Assembly (NCBI GenBank): GCA_004292785.1
Contig: RDXG01000211.1
Location: forward strand, 1 to 38,252
Reading direction: 5' to 3'
Length of the DNA stretch: 38,252 bases
Source of the DNA: Bacteroidota bacterium
GTDB lineage: Bacteria > Bacteroidota > Bacteroidia > Cytophagales > Thermoflexibacteraceae
This document shows positions 1,172 to 38,252 of the stretch, piece by piece. Positions within the stretch are counted from its first letter, which is position 1. Each line of letters opens with the position of its first letter. The notes below the pieces were generated by a model, which saw only the letters and a program-made list of their open reading frames with translations, was not told where the DNA came from and did not search any database. Both the position numbers and the translations under genes were made by a program.

Positions 1172-1635
1172 TGATGGAAAATGAATTTTTAATAAACACC
1201 GTTTTGGAAGATGACCTAAAAGGCATTTTCGAACTAGAAAAACAAGTTTTTGGCAAAATGTCTTATCCTTTGTTCGTGCTTAGGCAATTTTACGACATTT
1301 GCCAAGATTGTTTTTTGATTGCTACCGATTCGCAAAATAAAGTTTTGGGCTACACGCTTGGAAATTACAACATTCAAACCCAAACAGGTTGGATTTTGTC
1401 TTTGGCAGTTTCAGCTGATATTCAAAGCAAGGGAGTAGGGTTTTCTTTATCTCAAAGTTTGATCGAAAAAATGAAAAATCATGGCATTACACAAATTTTT
1501 TTGACCGTTTCGCCAACAAACCACGCAGCCTTGAAATTATATAAAAAATTGCAATTTGTAGCTCATTCTTTTGACAACAACTACTATGGCGATCAGGAAG
1601 AAAGAATGGTGATGTGTTTGAATCCAAAACTATAA
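1171..1635 (+). CDS. GNAT family N-acetyltransferase
   Basis: The protein has 154 residues, the normal size for a single GNAT domain. It shows the acetyl-CoA-binding motif A (LAVSADIQSKGVGFSLSQSL, about residues 82-101, with the Q-x-x-G-x-G-like turn) and a RimI-like C-terminal part (FLTVSPTNHAALKLYKKLQF), where the N-H-x-A-L-x-L-Y-x-K-L pattern is typical. It transfers an acetyl group from acetyl-CoA to an amine; protein N-terminal or small-molecule acetylation cannot be separated here. Its ATG overlaps the stop of the barrel gene by one base, so the two are probably translated together. A second ATG follows immediately (1174). The gene is convergent with the TonB-dependent receptor, with only 20 bases between stops. 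Confidence 0.88.
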   Translation: MMENEFLINTVLEDDLKGIFELEKQVFGKMSYPLFVLRQFYDICQDCFLIATDSQNKVLGYTLGNYNIQTQTGWILSLAVSADIQSKGVGFSLSQSLIEKMKNHGITQIFLTVSPTNHAALKLYKKLQFVAHSFDNNYYGDQEERMVMCLNPKL

Positions 1636-1655
1636 ACAAGTATTGACCAATCAAA

Positions 1656-4232
1656 TTATTTCCAATCAAAAGCCAAACGAATTTGCAAAGTTCTACGGTT
1701 TTGGGGCAATAAAGGCGCGTACAATTTGGCATTGGCAGACCTAATGCCAGGATCAAAATATTCAGAATCTAACAAATTATTGATGATCATTTGCAAATTT
1801 AAGCCTTTCAAAACTTCATAGGAAATGGTCGTATTTACATTCAAATAAGGATCGACTTTATCAAAAGGATTTTCGCCAACGGTGGTAGTTTTTCCTGTCA
1901 AACGTTCTCCAACATAATTTAATCGGCAATTTAGATTTAGTTTTTCCATAAAAAAATGGGCATTTGCTCCAAAATTGCATTGAAATTTGGCAATATCTCC
2001 CACTCTAACTCCATTATCCTGCGGAAAAGTAGAAGTAGCATTAAAATAAAACTCATAATTTTTGAAGCGTTTGTTAGAATTAAACTGAAAACCTGCAATT
2101 TTTCGGTTGCCATTATCTACAAATTGCGTAGTTCCATCAGGCTGTGTTTGCTCCTCGATCACATTGCTATATTCGGCATAATAGGCAATAAATTCGGCAT
2201 AATTGCCTTCAGAATGAGTCCATCTGCTACTAAATTCTATATTTTTGACTTGTTCAGGCTTTAGTTTTGGGTTACTTTTTCGGATCAATGAAGTAGCATA
2301 TTTGTTAAAAAACGAAGCATCTTTAAAGGCTTCCGAATACATCAACTTAAAAATATATCTTTGAGGCGAAAAAACTGCCACCAAGCGGCTATTATTGACC
2401 GTTCCATAACCCAAATTCCCATCTTTGATGCTGTTGTAATCCAAACGATGCCCAAAAACAAAATTCCAAACAGCAGATGCTTTATAAGAAAATTGTGCAA
2501 AAGTACCTAAATCAAGTACAGGGGACTGGTTTCCGCCATTAAAAGACTCTTTTGTTATAGGCTGACCGATTAAATTTGGTTGTGGAACAGAAGATAAAAC
2601 ATAATCGCCTTGCATATTGCTACTTCTAAATTCTGCACCACCAAGCAAATTCAATTTATCGGTCAAATTATAAGAAAAACGGGCTTCTGTTCTGAATTGC
2701 GAACTGCTTTGATAATAATAAGTATCCGCCCAAGTGGGTATTCGGTTGTTGGCAAGTTCCGCTATTCCTAAACTGCCTCTGCCATAACTTCCATAAGTCG
2801 AAATTACGGTTTCAGGCGTAAAAGAGTGCCTTTTATATTGGCTAAAACTTGTAAAATAAAGTCTTTCAGTCAAATATTTGTCGTAACGTGCATACACAAA
2901 CCATTCTTCTGTGTTCCATTTCAAGCCGTTGGCAGAACCCGAATAGGTGTTGTAATCTCCGTACATTCCCGCCGCTCCTTCGTTGAGTTTCCAATATTGA
3001 AAACCAATTTTAAAGTCTTGATACTTAAATTTTCCTCCGAAATATATATTTTCTTTTGCGTTTGAATATTCCAAAGGATTACCTTTTGAGTCTTTGATAT
3101 AATTTTCTTTATCGAGTTGCTTGGCTTTTTGGATAGCAAAATTTGTAGGCAAAATTGCATTAGGATTTCCGTTTGCATCAAAGTTTACGGTATAATTTTC
3201 GTTATTGATGGCAGAAATTCCTTTGTTTTTCAAATAATTTGGAACGTCTCTGCTTACCGATAAATTTCGCAAATAGGCTGCGTCAGAAAAATAATCGTCT
3301 TTCCATTCGTATTTCCAATAAGGATAATTTGACAAATCCATTTCGTTAGACCTAAAAATTCTGCCTGAAACAGTAAAAACAGCCTTATTTTTTCTGAAAC
3401 CGAGAGTTAAATCTGCAAATTGATTTTGATAAGTTCCTGCACCTGCATAAGCCGAAACTCCAACAGATTTTCCTGCCTTAAACAAATCATTTTCTTCTTT
3501 GGTTACAATGTTGATCACGCCCAAAAAGGCATTAGAACCGTACATTGTCGATGCGGGTCCATAAATAACTTCTACTTTTTTAAGATAACTCAAAGGAAAT
3601 TGGCGCGATAAAAAAGCAATGTTTGTATAAAGTTCGTTGTCTTCAACCCCATCAACCAAAACCAATGTTCTGTCCGTACTCGATGCCGATCTATACCCTC
3701 TTTGGTACAAATTGGAATAACCGATTCCGTTGGAGCGCGAAATATCAAAGCCTGAAAGATCGTGAAAAATTTGTTCAACGTCTTGATAACCACGCTTTTT
3801 AATATCTTTATCCGTGATCACAGACATGGTGGCAGGAGCTAATTCTATTTTTTCGGCACGTTTGGAAACCGAAGAAGTTTGATCGGATTCTAATTCGTTT
3901 TTGGTTTGGGTAAACAATTCTTCGAAAAGTGGGGAGTCATCGTAGGCTGGTTCAAAATCAGGTTTCAAAAAAATTAATTCTTGAATTTCTTGTTTGGATT
4001 TTTTGGTGGAATCTATTGCCAAATAAGATTTTGCCTTAATTTTGCGTGCTTCTACTTTTTCAATGTAAGTCAAATTTGTAAAACAGCGGTTCAAATCTTC
4101 GATGGCTTTGTTAAAATTACCATTTTTGAAGGCTAATTCCGATTTTAACACCATATCTTTACATTCATTGTTTTGCGAAAACAAAATAAAAGGCAAAAAG
4201 CACAGAAAAAAGAGTAAAAAGTATATTTTCAT
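1656..4232 (-). CDS. TonB-dependent receptor with N-terminal TPR-like extension
   Basis: Outer-membrane active transporter, 858 residues from ATG 4232. I chose this start because it gives the signal peptide MKIYFLLFFLCFLPFILFSQ; an in-frame upstream start would bury it. Residues about 22-110 are helical and TPR-like (SELAFKNGNFNKAIEDLNRC) instead of the usual carboxypeptidase-regulatory-like domain. The plug follows (APATMSVITDKDIKKRGYQD, then LVLVDGVEDNELY, VEVIYGPASTMYGSNAFLGV), and the remainder is a beta-barrel ending in RLAFDWK with a C-terminal aromatic. Substrate unknown: no siderophore, vitamin or glycan gene is adjacent. It is separated from the PBP gene upstream by a terminator hairpin, so it is probably transcribed alone. 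Confidence 0.9.
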   Translation of the reverse strand: MKIYFLLFFLCFLPFILFSQNNECKDMVLKSELAFKNGNFNKAIEDLNRCFTNLTYIEKVEARKIKAKSYLAIDSTKKSKQEIQELIFLKPDFEPAYDDSPLFEELFTQTKNELESDQTSSVSKRAEKIELAPATMSVITDKDIKKRGYQDVEQIFHDLSGFDISRSNGIGYSNLYQRGYRSASSTDRTLVLVDGVEDNELYTNIAFLSRQFPLSYLKKVEVIYGPASTMYGSNAFLGVINIVTKEENDLFKAGKSVGVSAYAGAGTYQNQFADLTLGFRKNKAVFTVSGRIFRSNEMDLSNYPYWKYEWKDDYFSDAAYLRNLSVSRDVPNYLKNKGISAINNENYTVNFDANGNPNAILPTNFAIQKAKQLDKENYIKDSKGNPLEYSNAKENIYFGGKFKYQDFKIGFQYWKLNEGAAGMYGDYNTYSGSANGLKWNTEEWFVYARYDKYLTERLYFTSFSQYKRHSFTPETVISTYGSYGRGSLGIAELANNRIPTWADTYYYQSSSQFRTEARFSYNLTDKLNLLGGAEFRSSNMQGDYVLSSVPQPNLIGQPITKESFNGGNQSPVLDLGTFAQFSYKASAVWNFVFGHRLDYNSIKDGNLGYGTVNNSRLVAVFSPQRYIFKLMYSEAFKDASFFNKYATSLIRKSNPKLKPEQVKNIEFSSRWTHSEGNYAEFIAYYAEYSNVIEEQTQPDGTTQFVDNGNRKIAGFQFNSNKRFKNYEFYFNATSTFPQDNGVRVGDIAKFQCNFGANAHFFMEKLNLNCRLNYVGERLTGKTTTVGENPFDKVDPYLNVNTTISYEVLKGLNLQMIINNLLDSEYFDPGIRSANAKLYAPLLPQNRRTLQIRLAFDWK

Positions 4233-8661: not shown

Positions 8662-9423
8662 TTAGTTTTCTGCCAAAATTTTCTCAAAATTATTTAGCAA
8701 ATATAGCCAAACAAAGGAATATTCTACGTTTTCTCTAATTTTCCTTTCACAATTTTTTTTTGATAATTGAGTTGCAAGTTCAAAAGATTCTTTTTGTGTA
8801 TTTTTCTTCTCCAAAAAAAATTCATAATAATTGTTAAAATCTTCCCAAAAATCGTCAATAGTTTTTTTGCGAGAATATTGTAATTGTAATCTGTTCAATT
8901 TTATAATTTTGATGGTTAGTTCTGCTTTTTTCGAATCTTTTTTTGGCAAAAGTTCTCCATTTTTGTCATTGAGATCAAAATGTTCGAAAGGATCATCAAA
9001 TTCAGGATTTAAAATTAGTGCTTGTTCAGAAAGCAAGTATTCGCTATCCAAACGGCATTTTTCGTAATCCAAATTTCCATTAACCAACAAAGGCGGATCG
9101 TATTTGGGTGGGTTTTCGGTTTCAAAAATATCGCTTTTTTCTTTTTGGCAAATCGTACAACAAGGCAAAAAATTTGTCCATTCATGAGCCAACCAAAAAT
9201 ATTTATTTTTTGATTTGGGACGATAATGTTCCACTGTCGGCATCATTCTTTTCAAATCTGTTTGACAATAAGCACATTTATAATTATATAATTCTAGCAA
9301 ATCTTTTTGCACCCTCGACCAACAAGAATTATTTGCTTTTTTGAGTGCCAATAAATCTGATTCGCACCATAATTGATCTTTTCTTAACGAAATTAGAGAA
9401 AAATTTTTAGTTATTTTCTTCAT
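8662..9423 (-). CDS. ptuB: HNH endonuclease, Septu PtuB-like (TIGR02646-type)
   Basis: 253 residues. The HNH/zinc-binding core is visible: C50-A-Y-C53, then PTVEHYRPK (E65-H66, the catalytic-histidine region), then TNFLPCCTICQKEK with C88/C89 and C92. The E-H-[FY]-R-P-K and N-x-L-P-x-C-x-x-C spacing is characteristic of the HNH family found beside AAA ATPases in Septu defence systems and with some retrons. It should be a metal-dependent nuclease acting with the ATPase encoded just upstream, whose 3' end overlaps this gene by 17 nt. Overlap and order (ATPase then HNH) fit PtuA-PtuB. I saw no reverse transcriptase or retron RNA nearby. Its activity as a defence gene is inferred. Confidence 0.78.
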   Translation of the reverse strand: MKKITKNFSLISLRKDQLWCESDLLALKKANNSCWSRVQKDLLELYNYKCAYCQTDLKRMMPTVEHYRPKSKNKYFWLAHEWTNFLPCCTICQKEKSDIFETENPPKYDPPLLVNGNLDYEKCRLDSEYLLSEQALILNPEFDDPFEHFDLNDKNGELLPKKDSKKAELTIKIIKLNRLQLQYSRKKTIDDFWEDFNNYYEFFLEKKNTQKESFELATQLSKKNCERKIRENVEYSFVWLYLLNNFEKILAEN

Positions 9424-10900
9424 TTTCCATGTTTTTTAGTTGTTGATACAAATTTTTGATGTTATTTTTGGCTTGTTGGCGTTTTTCTTTTTCCTCAAAG
9501 GAGTCGCCTGTATGAATATGCTCAATTCCTTCGTTTTGGGTACTAAAAATATTTTCCAAACCAAACAAAGGCGAAGTCAATAACAAATTGGGAGTCAAAT
9601 TTTTGACATCAATATCCAATCTTTCTATTTGTGTACCTTCTGTTTCGTTGCGATCCACCCTAAAAAAAGCTGTATTTTCGGGCATTCCCAACAAAGCAAT
9701 CGCGCTGTGCGTGCTTACAATAAATTGCACTTTTGGGAAAGTTTCTGAAAGCATTTTTGGAAATTCTTTTTGCCATTTTGGATGTAAATGAGCATCTAAT
9801 TCATCAATAAGCACAATTCCTGCAAAATCTTTTGGGTTTTCTATATGCGGTTGCACTTCCGCCAACCTGATGATCATATCGCCGATCATGGCTACAATAT
9901 TTTTATTTCCTGCCGAAAGCTGATCCATAGAAACGGAAAAGTTTTTTTCGTAATAAAAGAACTCACTTCCTTTTCTTTCAATTCGATCAATGTTGGGCAA
10001 AAGCCTCACCATCATGTCCATCACGACCTGCACTTGTTTCTCTTTGCCTTCCAAAATTTGATTTTTAAACCAATATCCTATGTTTAACAAAGTGGCATCC
10101 GTTCTGAAAATATGATACGCCGCGCCGCGTTTACTTTTTTTGCTTTCCATGCTTTCCGCAGTTTGCAGTTGCAAACGAGAAGCACCGTAAGCAGCAAAAC
10201 AAGGAATTAATTTTTCTTGATTAAAAGTTGTTTCTAAAACAGCAACATTAAAATTGTATTCATTTTCTTTTTTCGATTCTGTTTCTATCCAAAAATTTCG
10301 TTCATTGCAAAGAATCATGCCCGAATCGTGATCGTAATTTCCTTGCAAACCAATGGCAATGGCTTGTAAAATGGCTGTTTTTCCTCCACCATTATCTCCC
10401 AAAAAAACAATAAATTGGCAATCCAACGGAAAAACCGTTTCTATTTTTTTGATAGACTGATATTGAGAAACCAACAAATATTTTAAACAATATTGATAAG
10501 CAAATTTTTGATCATGGGCGTACACATTGGGAATAGATTTTGGAGCGCTGTCTTCTATGACAAAATCTATAATTTCTTTTAGTTTTTGAAAATGGTTAAA
10601 AGCTTCCTCTTTGTCAAAGGTAAATTCTTGTTTATTATCCGATTCATTATCAAATGTGATAAAATAATTCATGGTATCAGAAAAAATGAGCAAATAAGGT
10701 TTTACTTCAAAAAGTCTTTGCCAATCTTTTTTTATATCTTGATGCCCAAATCTTGGATATAACAATATAAGTGTATATAAAGTCAGGTTACAATTAAACC
10801 AAATGGATTGTTTAACATTACTATCGTTTTGAATTATAATTTGTTTAGACAAATCATATTCATCCCAAATTGCCTGAATAAAAACATCTCTTACTGCCAT
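9407..10900 (-). CDS. ptuA: AAA/ABC-type ATPase, Septu PtuA-like
   Basis: 497 residues from ATG 10900 (MAVRDVFIQAIWDEYDL). A TTG farther upstream was rejected because it would lie inside the promoter. Residues 1-150 are a family-specific N-terminal region. The ATPase then shows Walker A (FLGDNGGGKTAILQAI, K174), an ABC-type signature (QLSAGNKNIVAMIGDMI), Walker B (GIVLIDELDAHLHP, D366-E367) and the switch histidine (QFIVSTHSAIALLG). This is the OLD/RecF-like arrangement of stand-alone defence ATPases. In Septu, PtuA assembles with the HNH nuclease PtuB and controls DNA degradation during phage infection. The next gene is that HNH nuclease, overlapped by 17 nt, so they form one operon. Confidence 0.8.
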   Translation of the reverse strand: MAVRDVFIQAIWDEYDLSKQIIIQNDSNVKQSIWFNCNLTLYTLILLYPRFGHQDIKKDWQRLFEVKPYLLIFSDTMNYFITFDNESDNKQEFTFDKEEAFNHFQKLKEIIDFVIEDSAPKSIPNVYAHDQKFAYQYCLKYLLVSQYQSIKKIETVFPLDCQFIVFLGDNGGGKTAILQAIAIGLQGNYDHDSGMILCNERNFWIETESKKENEYNFNVAVLETTFNQEKLIPCFAAYGASRLQLQTAESMESKKSKRGAAYHIFRTDATLLNIGYWFKNQILEGKEKQVQVVMDMMVRLLPNIDRIERKGSEFFYYEKNFSVSMDQLSAGNKNIVAMIGDMIIRLAEVQPHIENPKDFAGIVLIDELDAHLHPKWQKEFPKMLSETFPKVQFIVSTHSAIALLGMPENTAFFRVDRNETEGTQIERLDIDVKNLTPNLLLTSPLFGLENIFSTQNEGIEHIHTGDSFEEKEKRQQAKNNIKNLYQQLKNMENEENN

Positions 10901-10918
10901 ATTTAATAATTTTTTTGC

Positions 10919-10947
10919 CAAATATACGCAAAAAAAAATTTCCAAAA
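10919..10947 (-). promoter_or_regulatory. Promoter of the Septu-like operon
   Basis: On the minus strand TTTTG (10947..10943) is followed after 16 nt by TATATTTG (10926..10919), a consensus -7 element, 18 nt before the ATPase ATG. It makes the pair an independent transcription unit. Confidence 0.5.
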
Positions 10948-29009: not shown

Positions 29010-29774
29010 TTATTTTTGTATTGTACGAAATTCCTTTTTTAAATACTCTTGATTTTTTAAGGCAGAAAGTACCAAATTTTTTATGCCTAAACATATTTTA
29101 TATGAGGAGAGTCTTAAACTTTTATATAACCCTTTTTCTATTCCTTTTGTAAATGTACCATGCCCAATTTCGTTTCGATTATGAAGTAATTGGTTTATAC
29201 TGCTGTCATATATTTTAAATTCATCATAAGGAAGCCCAAGCTGAAATAATATTTTTCTAATAACAGAAAGTTTTAAATTACTTTCTGTATCAACCAAGCC
29301 TTTGATATGATCTTCGCCTTTTTTGCGTTTATTTTGATTAGCAACAGGTATTTTAATTATCTTACCATTTGTATTTACACCAAATATTTCATCAAATTTT
29401 TCAGTAAATTCTAACCTTCTAGAAAACAAATGCAAATCCTTATCATCAGGTAAATCATTTTTAAACAAAGCACTTTTATTTGTAATATCTTGTAAATCTT
29501 TAAAAACAGTCAATAGCGAGCTAACCTGAATGGCATAACTAGCCTGATAAAGAGGTATTTTTTCCTCATTAATTAGGTCAACATAATAATCATCGAGAAT
29601 TTGTTTAAAAAATCCTTCAAAATGCGAATATAACATTACCACCAAAGATTTACGATAAATTTCTTTAGCAGTCTCATTGGCTATGCTTTCAAGCAGAGAT
29701 TCTAAAAATAGCATTTCTCTACAACGTTTTTTAAATTGTGCCTTTATGTCTGACTCAATGTCTTTAATATTCAT
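29010..29774 (-). CDS. HEPN-domain protein, MAE_28990/MAE_18760-like
   Basis: 254 residues, all-helical by appearance. N-terminal helices include VVMLYSHFEGFFKQILDDYY, an S/C-H-[FY]-E-G-F pattern common to this HEPN group. Near the C-terminus, INQLLHNRNEIGHGTF carries the HEPN R-x4-H motif (R200, H205), with the N-E-x-x-H-G context expected for a metal-independent RNase active site. Translation is coupled to the DUF262 gene: its ATG overlaps that gene's TGA (ATGA). HEPN proteins often act as RNA-cleaving toxins in toxin-antitoxin and abortive-infection systems; here the effector role is inferred from motif and pairing. Composition is AT-rich like the partner, consistent with an accessory module. 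Confidence 0.78.
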   Translation of the reverse strand: MNIKDIESDIKAQFKKRCREMLFLESLLESIANETAKEIYRKSLVVMLYSHFEGFFKQILDDYYVDLINEEKIPLYQASYAIQVSSLLTVFKDLQDITNKSALFKNDLPDDKDLHLFSRRLEFTEKFDEIFGVNTNGKIIKIPVANQNKRKKGEDHIKGLVDTESNLKLSVIRKILFQLGLPYDEFKIYDSSINQLLHNRNEIGHGTFTKGIEKGLYKSLRLSSYKICLGIKNLVLSALKNQEYLKKEFRTIQK

Positions 29775-30868
29775 GAATTTGTAAGTATTTTTTCGACAAT
29801 ATTTTCTATTAGCTCAATTCTCTTTTTGAGATTTTTACGCTTAGAGCCATCTTTAGTAGAGGTAGCCATTTTAAAATCTTTGTCTTCTTTAATATTTCTA
29901 AAGTTTTCGCCCAATTTTGAATAATGTTTTTGTTCTATTTGTTCCAGAAATTTTTGGATACCCAGAGTAAATGCTTCAAAATAGAAGGCTCTATATTGAC
30001 CATTTTTACTTGAACGAAAAATATCTTTTCCCAAACTTCCTTTTAAAATTTTAAAAGTTTTTTCAAAAATCTTTTCTTCACGAATATAGTCAAAGTTATG
30101 TTTTTTTTCTGCTACCAATTCAGCATATTGTGTCATAAATTCAGATAATTGTTCCTCGTATTTTTCTATTCCGTTTTTTAAAGCGAAAAAACGAAGTACT
30201 AACTCTTGATCTGATTTTCTACGAATATCATACTCTGCTACACTAGATATACAAGTTTTAAAATAATTATTTTCACTTAGTTTGATGATAAATCTCATGA
30301 ACTTATCTCCTGAATCTAACAATCTAATGGTGGCATTGCGTATTTCCTGAGGACTTAATGTTAAACCATTTGTATTTAAACGATTAAACATATCGTATTT
30401 TAGGCGTGAAGAACTATCTTTTCCTATAATTTCTACTCTAATTGGACTCCGTTTTATTTTAAGTTTTATAGCTTGTGGTAGTGTTTCAAATGTTAGTCCA
30501 TTAAGCCCTTCTATAATATCACAATTCTTTAAACATAAAGGAGATAATAATTCTCCTTCCTCTCTAAGTAGACCTTTAAAATGTAACCAAGACGAAATTC
30601 TTTGTAACCCATCAATTAATTCCCATATTCTACTGCCTTGTCTTTCAACCACAAAAATAGGCGGAATTGGCAATTCGAGAATGATGGATTCTATGAACTG
30701 AGATTGTAAAGTTTCAGACCATCGGAAAAGTCTTTGAAATTCAGGCGAAATAATTAACTCTTGATCTTTATACATTTCAGCTAATTCATTAAAAGAAAAA
30801 TCAGCTGAACTGGTTCTAACAGTTAAAATAGTTTTGTCTATAGAATTTATAAGTGTTGCAGTATCCAT
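29771..30868 (-). CDS. DUF262 (GmrSD N-terminal-like) protein, lacking the nuclease half
   Basis: 365 residues from ATG 30868. The DUF262 ParB-like domain is clear: SPEFQRLFRWSETLQSQFIE (residues 41-60, with the F-Q-R-x-x-R-W signature), IPPIFVVERQGSRIWELIDGLQR with the D-G-x-Q-R loop (86-90), and FNRLNTNGLTLSPQEIRNA, the typical N-x-x-G-x-x-L-[ST]-x-x-E-x-R-x-A motif. In GmrSD/BrxU-type type IV restriction enzymes this domain senses or hydrolyses nucleotides and is joined to a DUF1524 HNH nuclease. That nuclease part is absent; the rest is helical. A HEPN gene overlaps its stop by 4 nt and may supply the effector. The start was preferred over a TTG inside the promoter. Confidence 0.85.
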   Translation of the reverse strand: MDTATLINSIDKTILTVRTSSADFSFNELAEMYKDQELIISPEFQRLFRWSETLQSQFIESIILELPIPPIFVVERQGSRIWELIDGLQRISSWLHFKGLLREEGELLSPLCLKNCDIIEGLNGLTFETLPQAIKLKIKRSPIRVEIIGKDSSSRLKYDMFNRLNTNGLTLSPQEIRNATIRLLDSGDKFMRFIIKLSENNYFKTCISSVAEYDIRRKSDQELVLRFFALKNGIEKYEEQLSEFMTQYAELVAEKKHNFDYIREEKIFEKTFKILKGSLGKDIFRSSKNGQYRAFYFEAFTLGIQKFLEQIEQKHYSKLGENFRNIKEDKDFKMATSTKDGSKRKNLKKRIELIENIVEKILTNS

Positions 30869-30895
30869 ATGATTTTTTTTAGAATTACTTTTGCG

Positions 30896-30903
30896 CAAAG
30901 GTA
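30896..30903 (-). promoter_or_regulatory. -7 promoter element of the DUF262-HEPN operon
   Basis: TACCTTTG on the minus strand matches TAnnTTTG, 27 nt before the DUF262 ATG. No good -33 element is visible upstream. Confidence 0.4.
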
Positions 30904-35855: not shown

Positions 35856-36836
35856 TTACATATCAAAAATCGTTTTTCTCATTTTGTCTATTGCTATTTC
35901 TGTACTTACCAAACTTTCGATGAGTAAAACTTCATTTTTAGGGATTCCCAACAATTTGCTTGCTTTTTCTACGGTTTCTTTTTCAGAATAATCGTCATCT
36001 GCTTTGGCAACTTGGATGGCGTTGTAAAGTAAAGTGCGTTTGAGGCTAGAACGGCAGTTAGGCAATTCGTTTTTAGCGTCAATTTTGGAAAGAATTTCTG
36101 CCAAATTCGCATTTTTATAATCAAATTCTTCCATCATTTCTAAGGCATCTTCCCCTGATTCGTCAATGATTTTAAAATAATTTTTGATCCATTCCCATTC
36201 TTGTTCGGAAACTTCGCCATCTGAACCTGCAATCGTAAGCAAGGCTTTTCCATAATCTGCAAGTAATCGGGTGGCTTCTCGGCTAAAACCGTCAGCTTGC
36301 ATGACATAAAGGCTGATGCTGTCCACAATTTCGCTTTCGAGGGTGCTTGTTTTTTCTTGGGAAACCTGCTCTATGTGCAACAAAAATCTGCGCATTTTGT
36401 CGGCAGCCATTTCCATGTTTACAATTTGCTCTAAGGCGCAAGTAACTTCTGACGGTACTCCGAGCAAAATTGCAGCTTGATGAACGGCTTTTTGTTCGGC
36501 GGGAGCATAGAACAAATCGGCATGAGCCATTTTGATGGCATCATAAATCAAGGTTCTTTTGTAATTGATTGGCACATCAAAAGAAATTTTGTGCAAAACC
36601 ATCTCTAAAGAATGATTTTTAAAATCAAAACTATGCAAGGCTTCAATTACTTCGCCAGGAGCTTCCAACATTTTTTCGTGAACATTCAACAGCCACGCCA
36701 TTTCTGATTCTGAAACTTCGCCATCAGCTCCTGCAATGATCAAGAGTGCATAGCCGTAGTTGCTCCAAGATTGCACAGAAGCACTAGTGTAGCCATAAAT
36801 AGCGGTAGCAAGCGGTGAAGCCTTTATTGTAGTCAT
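35856..36836 (-). CDS. Protein with two tandem TerB-like domains
   Basis: 326 residues, cytoplasmic, all-helical. Two copies of a roughly 150-residue TerB-like unit are visible: YGYALLIIAGADGEVSESEM (about residues 27-46) and YGKALLTIAGSDGEVSEQEW (about 190-209), each with the D-G-E-V-S-E acidic motif of tellurite-resistance TerB/DjlA-like domains. Each is followed by matching helices (RTLIYDAIKMAHAD and RTLLYNAIQVAKADDDYSE) and each unit closes with a M-E-M-A-x-D-K-M-R or T-E-I-A-I-D-K-M-R helix. The acidic motifs may bind a metal ion. No other ter gene is present, so resistance to tellurite should not be assumed; function is unknown. It is convergent with ribD. Confidence 0.78.
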   Translation of the reverse strand: MTTIKASPLATAIYGYTSASVQSWSNYGYALLIIAGADGEVSESEMAWLLNVHEKMLEAPGEVIEALHSFDFKNHSLEMVLHKISFDVPINYKRTLIYDAIKMAHADLFYAPAEQKAVHQAAILLGVPSEVTCALEQIVNMEMAADKMRRFLLHIEQVSQEKTSTLESEIVDSISLYVMQADGFSREATRLLADYGKALLTIAGSDGEVSEQEWEWIKNYFKIIDESGEDALEMMEEFDYKNANLAEILSKIDAKNELPNCRSSLKRTLLYNAIQVAKADDDYSEKETVEKASKLLGIPKNEVLLIESLVSTEIAIDKMRKTIFDM

Positions 36837-36915: not shown

Positions 36916-37056
36916 TTAGAATTTGCCCAAATTGTTCATGTTTACCCAAATGACTTCACTAGGATTGTTTGCGTTAAAAACTCTTGCTAAAATGTAGCGT
37001 TGGGGACTTTCTAGCATCAATTTCCATTCGGCGGGAGACAAATAAATACTTTTTTG
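36916..37056 (-). pseudogene. Remnant of a gene end, DUF3883-like C-terminal fragment
   Basis: On the minus strand a 46-codon open stretch ends at TAA 36918..36916 and contains SIYLSPAEWKLMLESPQRYI, then LARVFNANNPSEVIWVNMNN. The S-x-x-E-W and Y-x-[IL]-x-[RY]-V-F pattern followed by V-x-N-[LM]-x-N resembles the C-terminal end of DUF3883-type domains. There is no ATG start and an in-frame TAA precedes it at 37059..37057. It lies just downstream of the nuclease-like gene. Best read as a decayed accessory gene; a very short gene from an internal TTG is less likely. Confidence 0.5.
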
Positions 37057-37065
37057 TTAAAAAAA

Positions 37066-38010
37066 TTAAAACATATTAATTTTTCCTGTTTCTAAAAAGT
37101 TTTTTAAAGATATTATTGGCGGAAACCCTTGTCGATAAATTTCTCGATTAAGATTATTTTCCCAGCAAATAATTAGCTGACAAGGTTCTTTAGACAAGAG
37201 ATGATCTTCGTAACTTTTGCTTTTAAACTCAAACTCTGCCATTATTGCATAACTAAAACGATCAGTATGATCATGACAATATATGCAAGCATCAGGAAAA
37301 CGACTTCGAACAAATACAATTTTTGAAAATGACATTGTTTTACCAATTTTTGTAAAGTGATATTTTTTTAATTCGCTAAAAAGCAAGCAAAAAAGAGCTA
37401 CCGTACCTTGTTCGTCAATGGGTTCGAATGCCATATTTCCCAAAACTTCGGTAAAATTGGGATATTTGAATTCTTTCCCATGTTTATCTGGTTTCGTTTC
37501 CTCTTTTGCTCGTTTGATATTAAAAACCTCTGTAACAATTTCTTTTACTATATCGTCTTCCAGCCTTGACTGTTCAGATTTAGATATAGATATAATCTTA
37601 ACAACCTTTTTTATTTCTTCAGTAGTAAAAACGTGTGCTTTTTCTTCTAAACTTTTTGATTTTATGTATTTAGAACGTAGGTCTCTAAATGTTTGTATGG
37701 CAATATTTCTAATTTTCGTTTCTTTTATTTTTACAAATTCTCTTAAATGAGAAAAAAGCATATCGGAAACTTCATCAAATTTAAAATTACTATAAATATC
37801 GATGTAAACATCGACAGTATCTTCTGTTTTACGAAATTTCTCTTTAGTATATTCGCCAAATGTCTTAATTTTTAGCTGTTCGTAGGTTTTACCTTTCCAT
37901 ATACGAGATGCAATTTCTCCAATTCGCCAAGCTATAGAGCCTGTTTCATCAGCCCTGTCCAAAAGATTTTTTAGATTAGCTGTATCAGCATTAATATCTG
38001 TTGTTGCCAT
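37066..38010 (-). CDS. Putative PD-(D/E)XK-type nuclease-like protein of unknown family
   Basis: 314 residues, no signal peptide or membrane helix. Residues 1-160 are helical and charged. The C-terminal part (about 225-300) shows FVRSRFPDACIYC, then AIMAEFEFKSKSYEDHLLSK, then CQLIICWENN. This F-P-D ... x-E-F-E-x-x-S-x-x-Y/F-x-x-H ... C-x-[IL]-I-[VI]-C-W-E-N pattern is one I associate with restriction-endonuclease-like domains, with D240, E259/E261 and K263 as candidate active-site residues. It lies between a decayed accessory gene end and an Rpn-type gene, consistent with an accessory patch. Catalytic function is inference; no partner methylase is seen. Confidence 0.6.
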   Translation of the reverse strand: MATTDINADTANLKNLLDRADETGSIAWRIGEIASRIWKGKTYEQLKIKTFGEYTKEKFRKTEDTVDVYIDIYSNFKFDEVSDMLFSHLREFVKIKETKIRNIAIQTFRDLRSKYIKSKSLEEKAHVFTTEEIKKVVKIISISKSEQSRLEDDIVKEIVTEVFNIKRAKEETKPDKHGKEFKYPNFTEVLGNMAFEPIDEQGTVALFCLLFSELKKYHFTKIGKTMSFSKIVFVRSRFPDACIYCHDHTDRFSYAIMAEFEFKSKSYEDHLLSKEPCQLIICWENNLNREIYRQGFPPIISLKNFLETGKINMF

Positions 38011-38087
38011 TTTTAATTTTTTTTATGAGGCAATTTTAAAAAATAATTATTAAACTTACAAGAAAAGACTATAAAATTTCAAAAATA

Positions 38088-38120
38088 AACCTTTATAAAA
38101 CTTAAAGCCTTATAAAGGTT
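38088..38120 (-). terminator. Hairpin after the Rpn-like gene
   Basis: AACCTTTATAA (38088-38098) pairs with TTATAAAGGTT (38110-38120), 11-nt loop that includes an AAGCC tract, 8 bases beyond the stop. Third member of the CTTATAAAAG hairpin group (22713-22745, 26094-26128). Confidence 0.6.
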
Positions 38121-38128
38121 AGCGTGAT

Positions 38129-38252
38129 TTATTTTTCTTCTTCTATTTCGTTGCCTGTTCGCAAAATATGTATTTGTTCAATAAGCAAACCTGTATCTTC
38201 AGCAATATCTTCGTTGCTAAGGTTACGTTTGATGAGTTTTTTAGCAATTTCT
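38129..38252 (-). CDS. C-terminal end of an Rpn-family (PD-(D/E)XK recombination-promoting nuclease/putative transposase) protein
   Basis: Only 41 codons are inside the window; the 5' part lies beyond base 38252. The tail EIAKKLIKRNLSNEDIAEDT, then GLLIEQIHILRTG, matches the helix-turn-helix-like C-terminal motif (I-A-x-x-L-[IL]-x-x-x-[LM]-S-x-E-x-I-A-x-x-T-G-L) of Rpn-family proteins. These carry an N-terminal PD-(D/E)XK nuclease domain and occur in many copies in Bacteroidota genomes. The family call rests only on this tail; a similar HTH tail occurs in some other proteins. Confidence 0.6.
   Translation of the reverse strand, partial: EIAKKLIKRNLSNEDIAEDTGLLIEQIHILRTGNEIEEEK

Follow-up and report, generated by a model that had tools for sequence, protein, structure and literature searches.

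A predicted PD-(D/E)XK-like nuclease gene of a little-described family, lying between a NOV_C remnant and the end of an Rpn-type gene

The window analysed here, a stretch of 38,252 nucleotides, is an entire contig (C354) of a 3.7-Mb assembly in 391 contigs, and near its end it carries a minus-strand gene of 314 codons. In our opinion this gene probably encodes a stand-alone, metal-dependent PD-(D/E)XK endonuclease that is likely to restrict foreign DNA. Its C-terminal domain belongs to a family that spans many phyla of Bacteria and Archaea and, judged by sequence searches, appears to be uncatalogued in Pfam, PADLOC and PHROGs. An HTH-like N-terminal domain would bind DNA and present it to the C-terminal catalytic domain, where D240, E259 and E261 would be the metal ligands, in a D...ExE variant of the site as in BamHI. 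In restricting foreign DNA, such a protein would serve as an accessory or modification-sensing nuclease. According to the same reading, the two gene ends beside it, a start-less NOV_C stub and the tail of an Rpn-type gene, are independent of the nuclease, and the three would have gathered where genes are repeatedly gained and lost. A preliminary description had pointed to these three minus-strand items, and all of them are real.

The 314-amino acid protein and its predicted fold

The open reading frame (37066..38010, minus strand) is intact and single-copy in its genome. No model of Pfam, NCBIfam or PADLOC reaches its cut-off with the protein. Relatives do exist at the protein level, and hence this is not a chance open reading frame: apart from the window's own genome, 97 genomes of the order were compared, and six of them encode a relative with 30-41% identity, which in five cases aligns over nearly the full length. 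A profile built from the order-level relatives led to 117 loci encoding a relative in the genome collection. The DNA pattern used to find loci includes the signature C-[DHQ]-[LM]-I-x-C-W. Eighty of the 117 loci were retained for analysis, and the residue counts given below rest on 78 aligned sequences, 77 of them relatives. About ten relatives have the entire architecture, and these come from Cytophagales, other Bacteroidetes, cyanobacteria and one unplaced bacterium. In the remaining relatives the common part is only the C-terminal ~100-140 residues.

Residues 1-118 (37657..38010, minus strand) form a helical domain that is conserved among the ten full-length relatives and is probably DNA binding. 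Its AlphaFold2 model is all-helical, from H6-17 to H98-116, with pLDDT >90 across most of residues 11-100. Matches of this part to known families are weak: Phage_HP1_Orf24 for the window protein (E 0.02) and the partition-type protein NF033725 for one relative, L019 (E 4.8e-4).

The unnamed nuclease-like domain comprises residues 172-314 (37069..37497, minus strand). AlphaFold2 models the whole protein with a mean pLDDT of 89.1 and this domain alone with pLDDT 94.0 and pTM 0.88. In the 143-residue construct the elements follow each other as helix 29-43, strands 53-63, 70-76 and 81-92, helix 93-99 and strand 108-113, and the alpha-beta-beta-beta-alpha-beta order of the PD-(D/E)XK core is seen in two AlphaFold2 models. 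From the topology and the position of the residues, the domain is a probable PD-(D/E)XK-like core; the restriction fold suggested in the preliminary description thus stands as a prediction, supported by the model scores and by the order of the elements. Foldseek returned no match to the PDB at E <= 0.001 with either the domain alone or the entire protein; among restriction enzymes PaqCI came nearest, ranking second with E 0.21 and TM 0.30. There was no significant match among viral models either, and a sequence search found no relative with a solved structure. Since no solved structure matches significantly, the fold is a predicted one and the activity a putative one, and it is by inference that we credit the 314-amino acid protein with metal binding, cleavage, a DNA-binding N-terminal domain and a role in defence.

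The residues from which a possible restriction fold had been suggested, D240, E259, E261 and K263, as well as C282-W283-E284-N285, are all present at these numbers. D240, part of an invariant P239-D240, lies immediately before core strand beta-2 (37291..37293, minus strand), and E259-F260-E261 lies in core strand beta-3 (37228..37236, minus strand). P239, D240, E259 and E261 are identical in 78/78 aligned sequences. C282-W283 in core strand beta-4 (37162..37167, minus strand) closes the C-[DHQ]-[LM]-I-x-C-W signature and is invariant, but it is also a part of the search pattern. Ten members were found by profile without the pattern bias, and all ten keep the D, the E-x-E and the C-W. In contrast to the three acidic residues, K263 does not hold up as a catalytic lysine: the position is K in just 17 of the 78 sequences, and most of them have E, K, R or Q there. 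With this position variable, the family motif reads D-x18-E-x-E and not ExK.

A lysine two residues past the beta-3 acid is absent from the family, position 261 being E in 78/78. The catalytic lysine is, however, replaced in some accepted PD-(D/E)XK members, for example in BamHI, a working restriction enzyme with a D, E, E active site, and for this reason we call the domain PD-(D/E)XK-like. The missing ExK lysine could also mean that the fold is kept while its chemistry has been lost or altered, so that the protein would serve in binding or regulation. The scarcity of K at position 263 and the E at position 261 throughout agree with this idea. Three strictly invariant acidic residues are, on the contrary, unexpected in a non-catalytic relic, and BamHI illustrates that ExE restriction enzymes do work. 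We therefore regard loss of catalysis as rather improbable.

Fusions, neighbours and copy number in the family

The suggestion that the gene represents a little-described family finds support in the libraries searched. At E <= 0.01 all 78 domain sequences are without a match to any Pfam, PADLOC or PHROGs family, and an NCBIfam scan, which covered the window protein and the ten full-length relatives, gave no credible domain match, only weak or N-terminal ones.

In the relatives the domain is fused to several partners. The homing-endonuclease-associated repeat occurs in 38 of the 78, Mrr_N and DUF5655 in six each, HARE-HTH and EVE in one each. Mrr_N, HARE-HTH and EVE are specificity or modification-reading domains of restriction enzymes: EVE-PD(D/E)XK fusions are putative type IV enzymes (PMC7641849), and HARE-HTH is a proposed sensor of modified bases (PMC11037411).

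Of the genes that could be named among 134 neighbouring open reading frames, those of Type I restriction are the most frequent (N6_Mtase 3, HSDR_N 3); this is a plain count of neighbours and not a test of enrichment over distant genes. In Trichocoleus (L026) the gene of the relative sits between hsdR and hsdM-hsdS, and in genome G087 it stands at the head of an hsdR-hsdM-hsdS set, 53 bases upstream. Type I-like genes are immediately adjacent also at three further loci (L082, L090 and L056). The hsd names come from the sequence and from phmmer matches between loci; for the neighbours taken together there is also support from PADLOC and Pfam. Most full-length relatives are without an adjacent restriction gene and lie alone among unrelated genes. 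One full-length relative, at L016, has ~350 bases upstream a gene (1238-2599, plus strand) for a protein with Schlafen/AlbA_2 and HATPase_c_4 domains, which also matches PADLOC pAgo models.

Copy number varies widely. The acidobacterial genome G723 (locus L069 and others) has 26 domain matches, several of them with in-frame stops; other genomes have 6-9, among them a rhodospirillacean with 9 and a planctomycete with 7, again with in-frame stops in some copies. Multiple copies are unusual for restriction enzymes, hence a selfish or homing-like role has to be considered for the repeat-bearing branch. More generally, the domain could do its cutting for a selfish homing-like element, spread by cutting and copying, or for a genome-maintenance pathway, and not for host defence. 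The repeat found in nearly half of the relatives speaks for this, as do the 26 matches in a single genome, the 6-9 in others and the stops in some of them, an odd picture for restriction enzymes lacking a methylase. However, the subfamily of the window has a different N-terminal domain without the repeat, the window gene is single-copy, two relatives sit in Type I restriction operons, and searches of phage, plasmid and viral-contig collections gave no relative. We consider such an origin unlikely, although less so than a loss of catalysis, and we continue to favor a restriction endonuclease.

It is tempting to speculate further that the D...ExE domain is, across phyla, a swappable cutter for many DNA-reading domains (HTH, Mrr_N, HARE-HTH, EVE and homing repeats), which has been amplified to >20 copies in one acidobacterial genome and acts in one branch as an extra Type I subunit. 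This is a tentative proposal, which we rate below even chance. A family that has no name in Pfam, PADLOC or PHROGs represents a gap in the catalogues of restriction and defence genes. If its members are active, they would be a source of DNA-cutting enzymes, possibly modification-dependent ones, and would account for a large number of proteins now called hypothetical, a part of which lie next to restriction genes.

The neighbouring gene ends and the rest of the contig

Read along the minus strand, the Rpn-type C-terminus is followed by a palindrome, the 314-codon gene, the start-less stub and a TerB gene. As the window is the entire contig, position 38252 is the contig end, and the sequence upstream of it is unreadable in the present assembly. 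Genes for hsdR, hsdM and hsdS are absent from the readable side of the 314-codon gene; the opposite side is off the contig.

The C-terminus of the Rpn family (recombination-promoting nuclease/putative transposase), a common kind of mobile nuclease gene, occupies 38129..38252 (minus strand) and is cut by the contig end. Its earlier identification is supported by a paralogue, since the frame has 84% DNA identity to the end of a 127-amino acid Rpn-like frame in contig C102 of the same genome. NCBIfam TIGR01784 is matched weakly at its end (E 0.01, 15.7 bits against a cut-off of 52.1, the last ~40 residues only). Between this tail and the nuclease gene lies a dispersed terminator-like palindrome (38085..38120, AACCTTTATAAG..CTTATAAAGGTT, hairpin z = -3.2). 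Similar copies are present at many sites of the genome, on both strands, and also at L003, L004, L005, L007 and L008; the palindrome could represent a repeated terminator acting in both directions, or a REP-like element. With this hairpin between them, the Rpn tail and the nuclease gene are probably separate units accumulated at one turnover site.

The stub (36916..37056, minus strand) consists of the last ~44 codons of a NOV_C gene. With Pfam PF13020 (NOV_C, formerly DUF3883) it scores 25.6 bits, where the cut-off is 22.1, and covers profile positions 56-88 of 91; it is start-less, with an in-frame stop directly upstream, in agreement with its first description as a DUF3883-like tail. It is the sole NOV_C match in the genome. 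We considered an independent small gene starting from TTG 37041 and rejected it, because the stretch is the C-terminus of NOV_C and a stop directly precedes it. The stub is 41-49% identical to the C-termini of ATPase-like proteins of ~1,320-1,340 amino acids in other genomes. Its QKSIYLSPAEW... aligns with KDSIYLSPAEW..., KDIIYLSPNEW... and KDVVYLSPNEW... at the C-termini of intact proteins of 1,318-1,338 amino acids from three genomes of the same order; it is a real NOV_C tail. The NOV_C homology starts ~16 bases past the nuclease stop codon, so that ~97% of the large NOV gene is missing. We read the stub as a leftover of a separate gene of ~1,330 codons, a large defence-type gene that is otherwise lost.

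The preliminary description went further and took the stub as a sign of a larger system that partly decayed or was replaced. That the NOV_C homology begins on the same strand so close to the nuclease stop may encourage the view that the two genes once formed one defence system whose NOV part decayed. The intact homologues speak against it. Around each of the three close NOV proteins ~12 kb was read and no member of the nuclease family was found; genome G068, which has the closest intact NOV homologue, encodes no relative of the 314-amino acid protein; and elsewhere in the window's family NOV_C genes occur only at two loci of G007, a genome from which the nuclease is absent. A common system thus seems very improbable to us, more so than the other alternatives, and the nuclease is better regarded as standing alone.

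Several other observations concern the same contig. Directly downstream of the stub, the gene at 35856-36836 (minus strand) has more than one TerB match in Pfam and no match in PADLOC. At 29010-30898 (minus strand) a DUF262/GmrSD_N protein of 375 amino acids matches the PADLOC models NsnA (E 7.5e-63) and PD-T4-2_A (E 2.3e-42); its gene overlaps a partner gene of 254 codons by 4 bases, and the two are probably a separate defence pair. At 8662-10945 (minus strand) a 253-amino acid protein with an HNH-like CxxC...H motif (CAYCQTDLKRMMPTVEHYRPKSKN), read by eye, is encoded by a gene overlapping a gene for 512 amino acids, possibly another accessory pair. A DNA match between the 3' end of the 314-codon gene and contig C334 was discarded, as it is a short non-coding A+T-rich stretch.

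Comparison with known families

The overall plan of an N-terminal reader followed by a C-terminal nuclease core is shared with PD-(D/E)XK restriction enzymes that carry winged-helix/HTH, EVE or Mrr_N domains and are putative or proven type IV enzymes (PMC7641849, PMC11037411). The acidic residues also stand at the canonical strand positions of PD-(D/E)XK restriction endonucleases. Unlike in the type IV enzymes, the catalytic domain here has no family in Pfam, PADLOC or PHROGs and carries ExE, not (D/E)xK, and in the N-terminal domain of this subfamily no Pfam model reaches its cut-off. The protein differs from Mrr-like enzymes as well: Mrr_N is absent from the window protein and is found in six distant relatives only, and Pfam Mrr_cat is matched by none of the 78 domains.

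With the D-E-E site of the BamHI type the family has in common a D...E-x-E arrangement, with 18 residues between D240 and E259; there is no sequence match or significant structural match to BamHI. As to the neighbouring remnant, the stub matches the last ~35 residues of NO VEIN-like/NOV_C ATPase-like proteins (PADLOC model TmtA), and ~3% of such a gene is left.

A further likeness came from a profile match, L104, which at first resembled a false positive but is a DUF2851-type protein (named from its sequence). This recognition led to a profile comparison with DUF2851 (PF11013), in which the domain profile scored 31.5 over 65 columns, while 100 column-shuffled alignments gave no more than 19.0 and the reversed alignment 11.3. 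DUF2851 is a family of Bacteroidetes; in the class, 60 genomes were sampled and 55 have it, almost always once. It differs from our family in having E-x-H, no CW signature and open frames of ~400-520 amino acids. Nevertheless, the two share the pattern PD ... E-x-[EH] ... S-x-[FW]-x-x-H-x-H ... LELK, and by this resemblance DUF2851 (L105-L134) could be a PD-(D/E)XK-like family in its own right.
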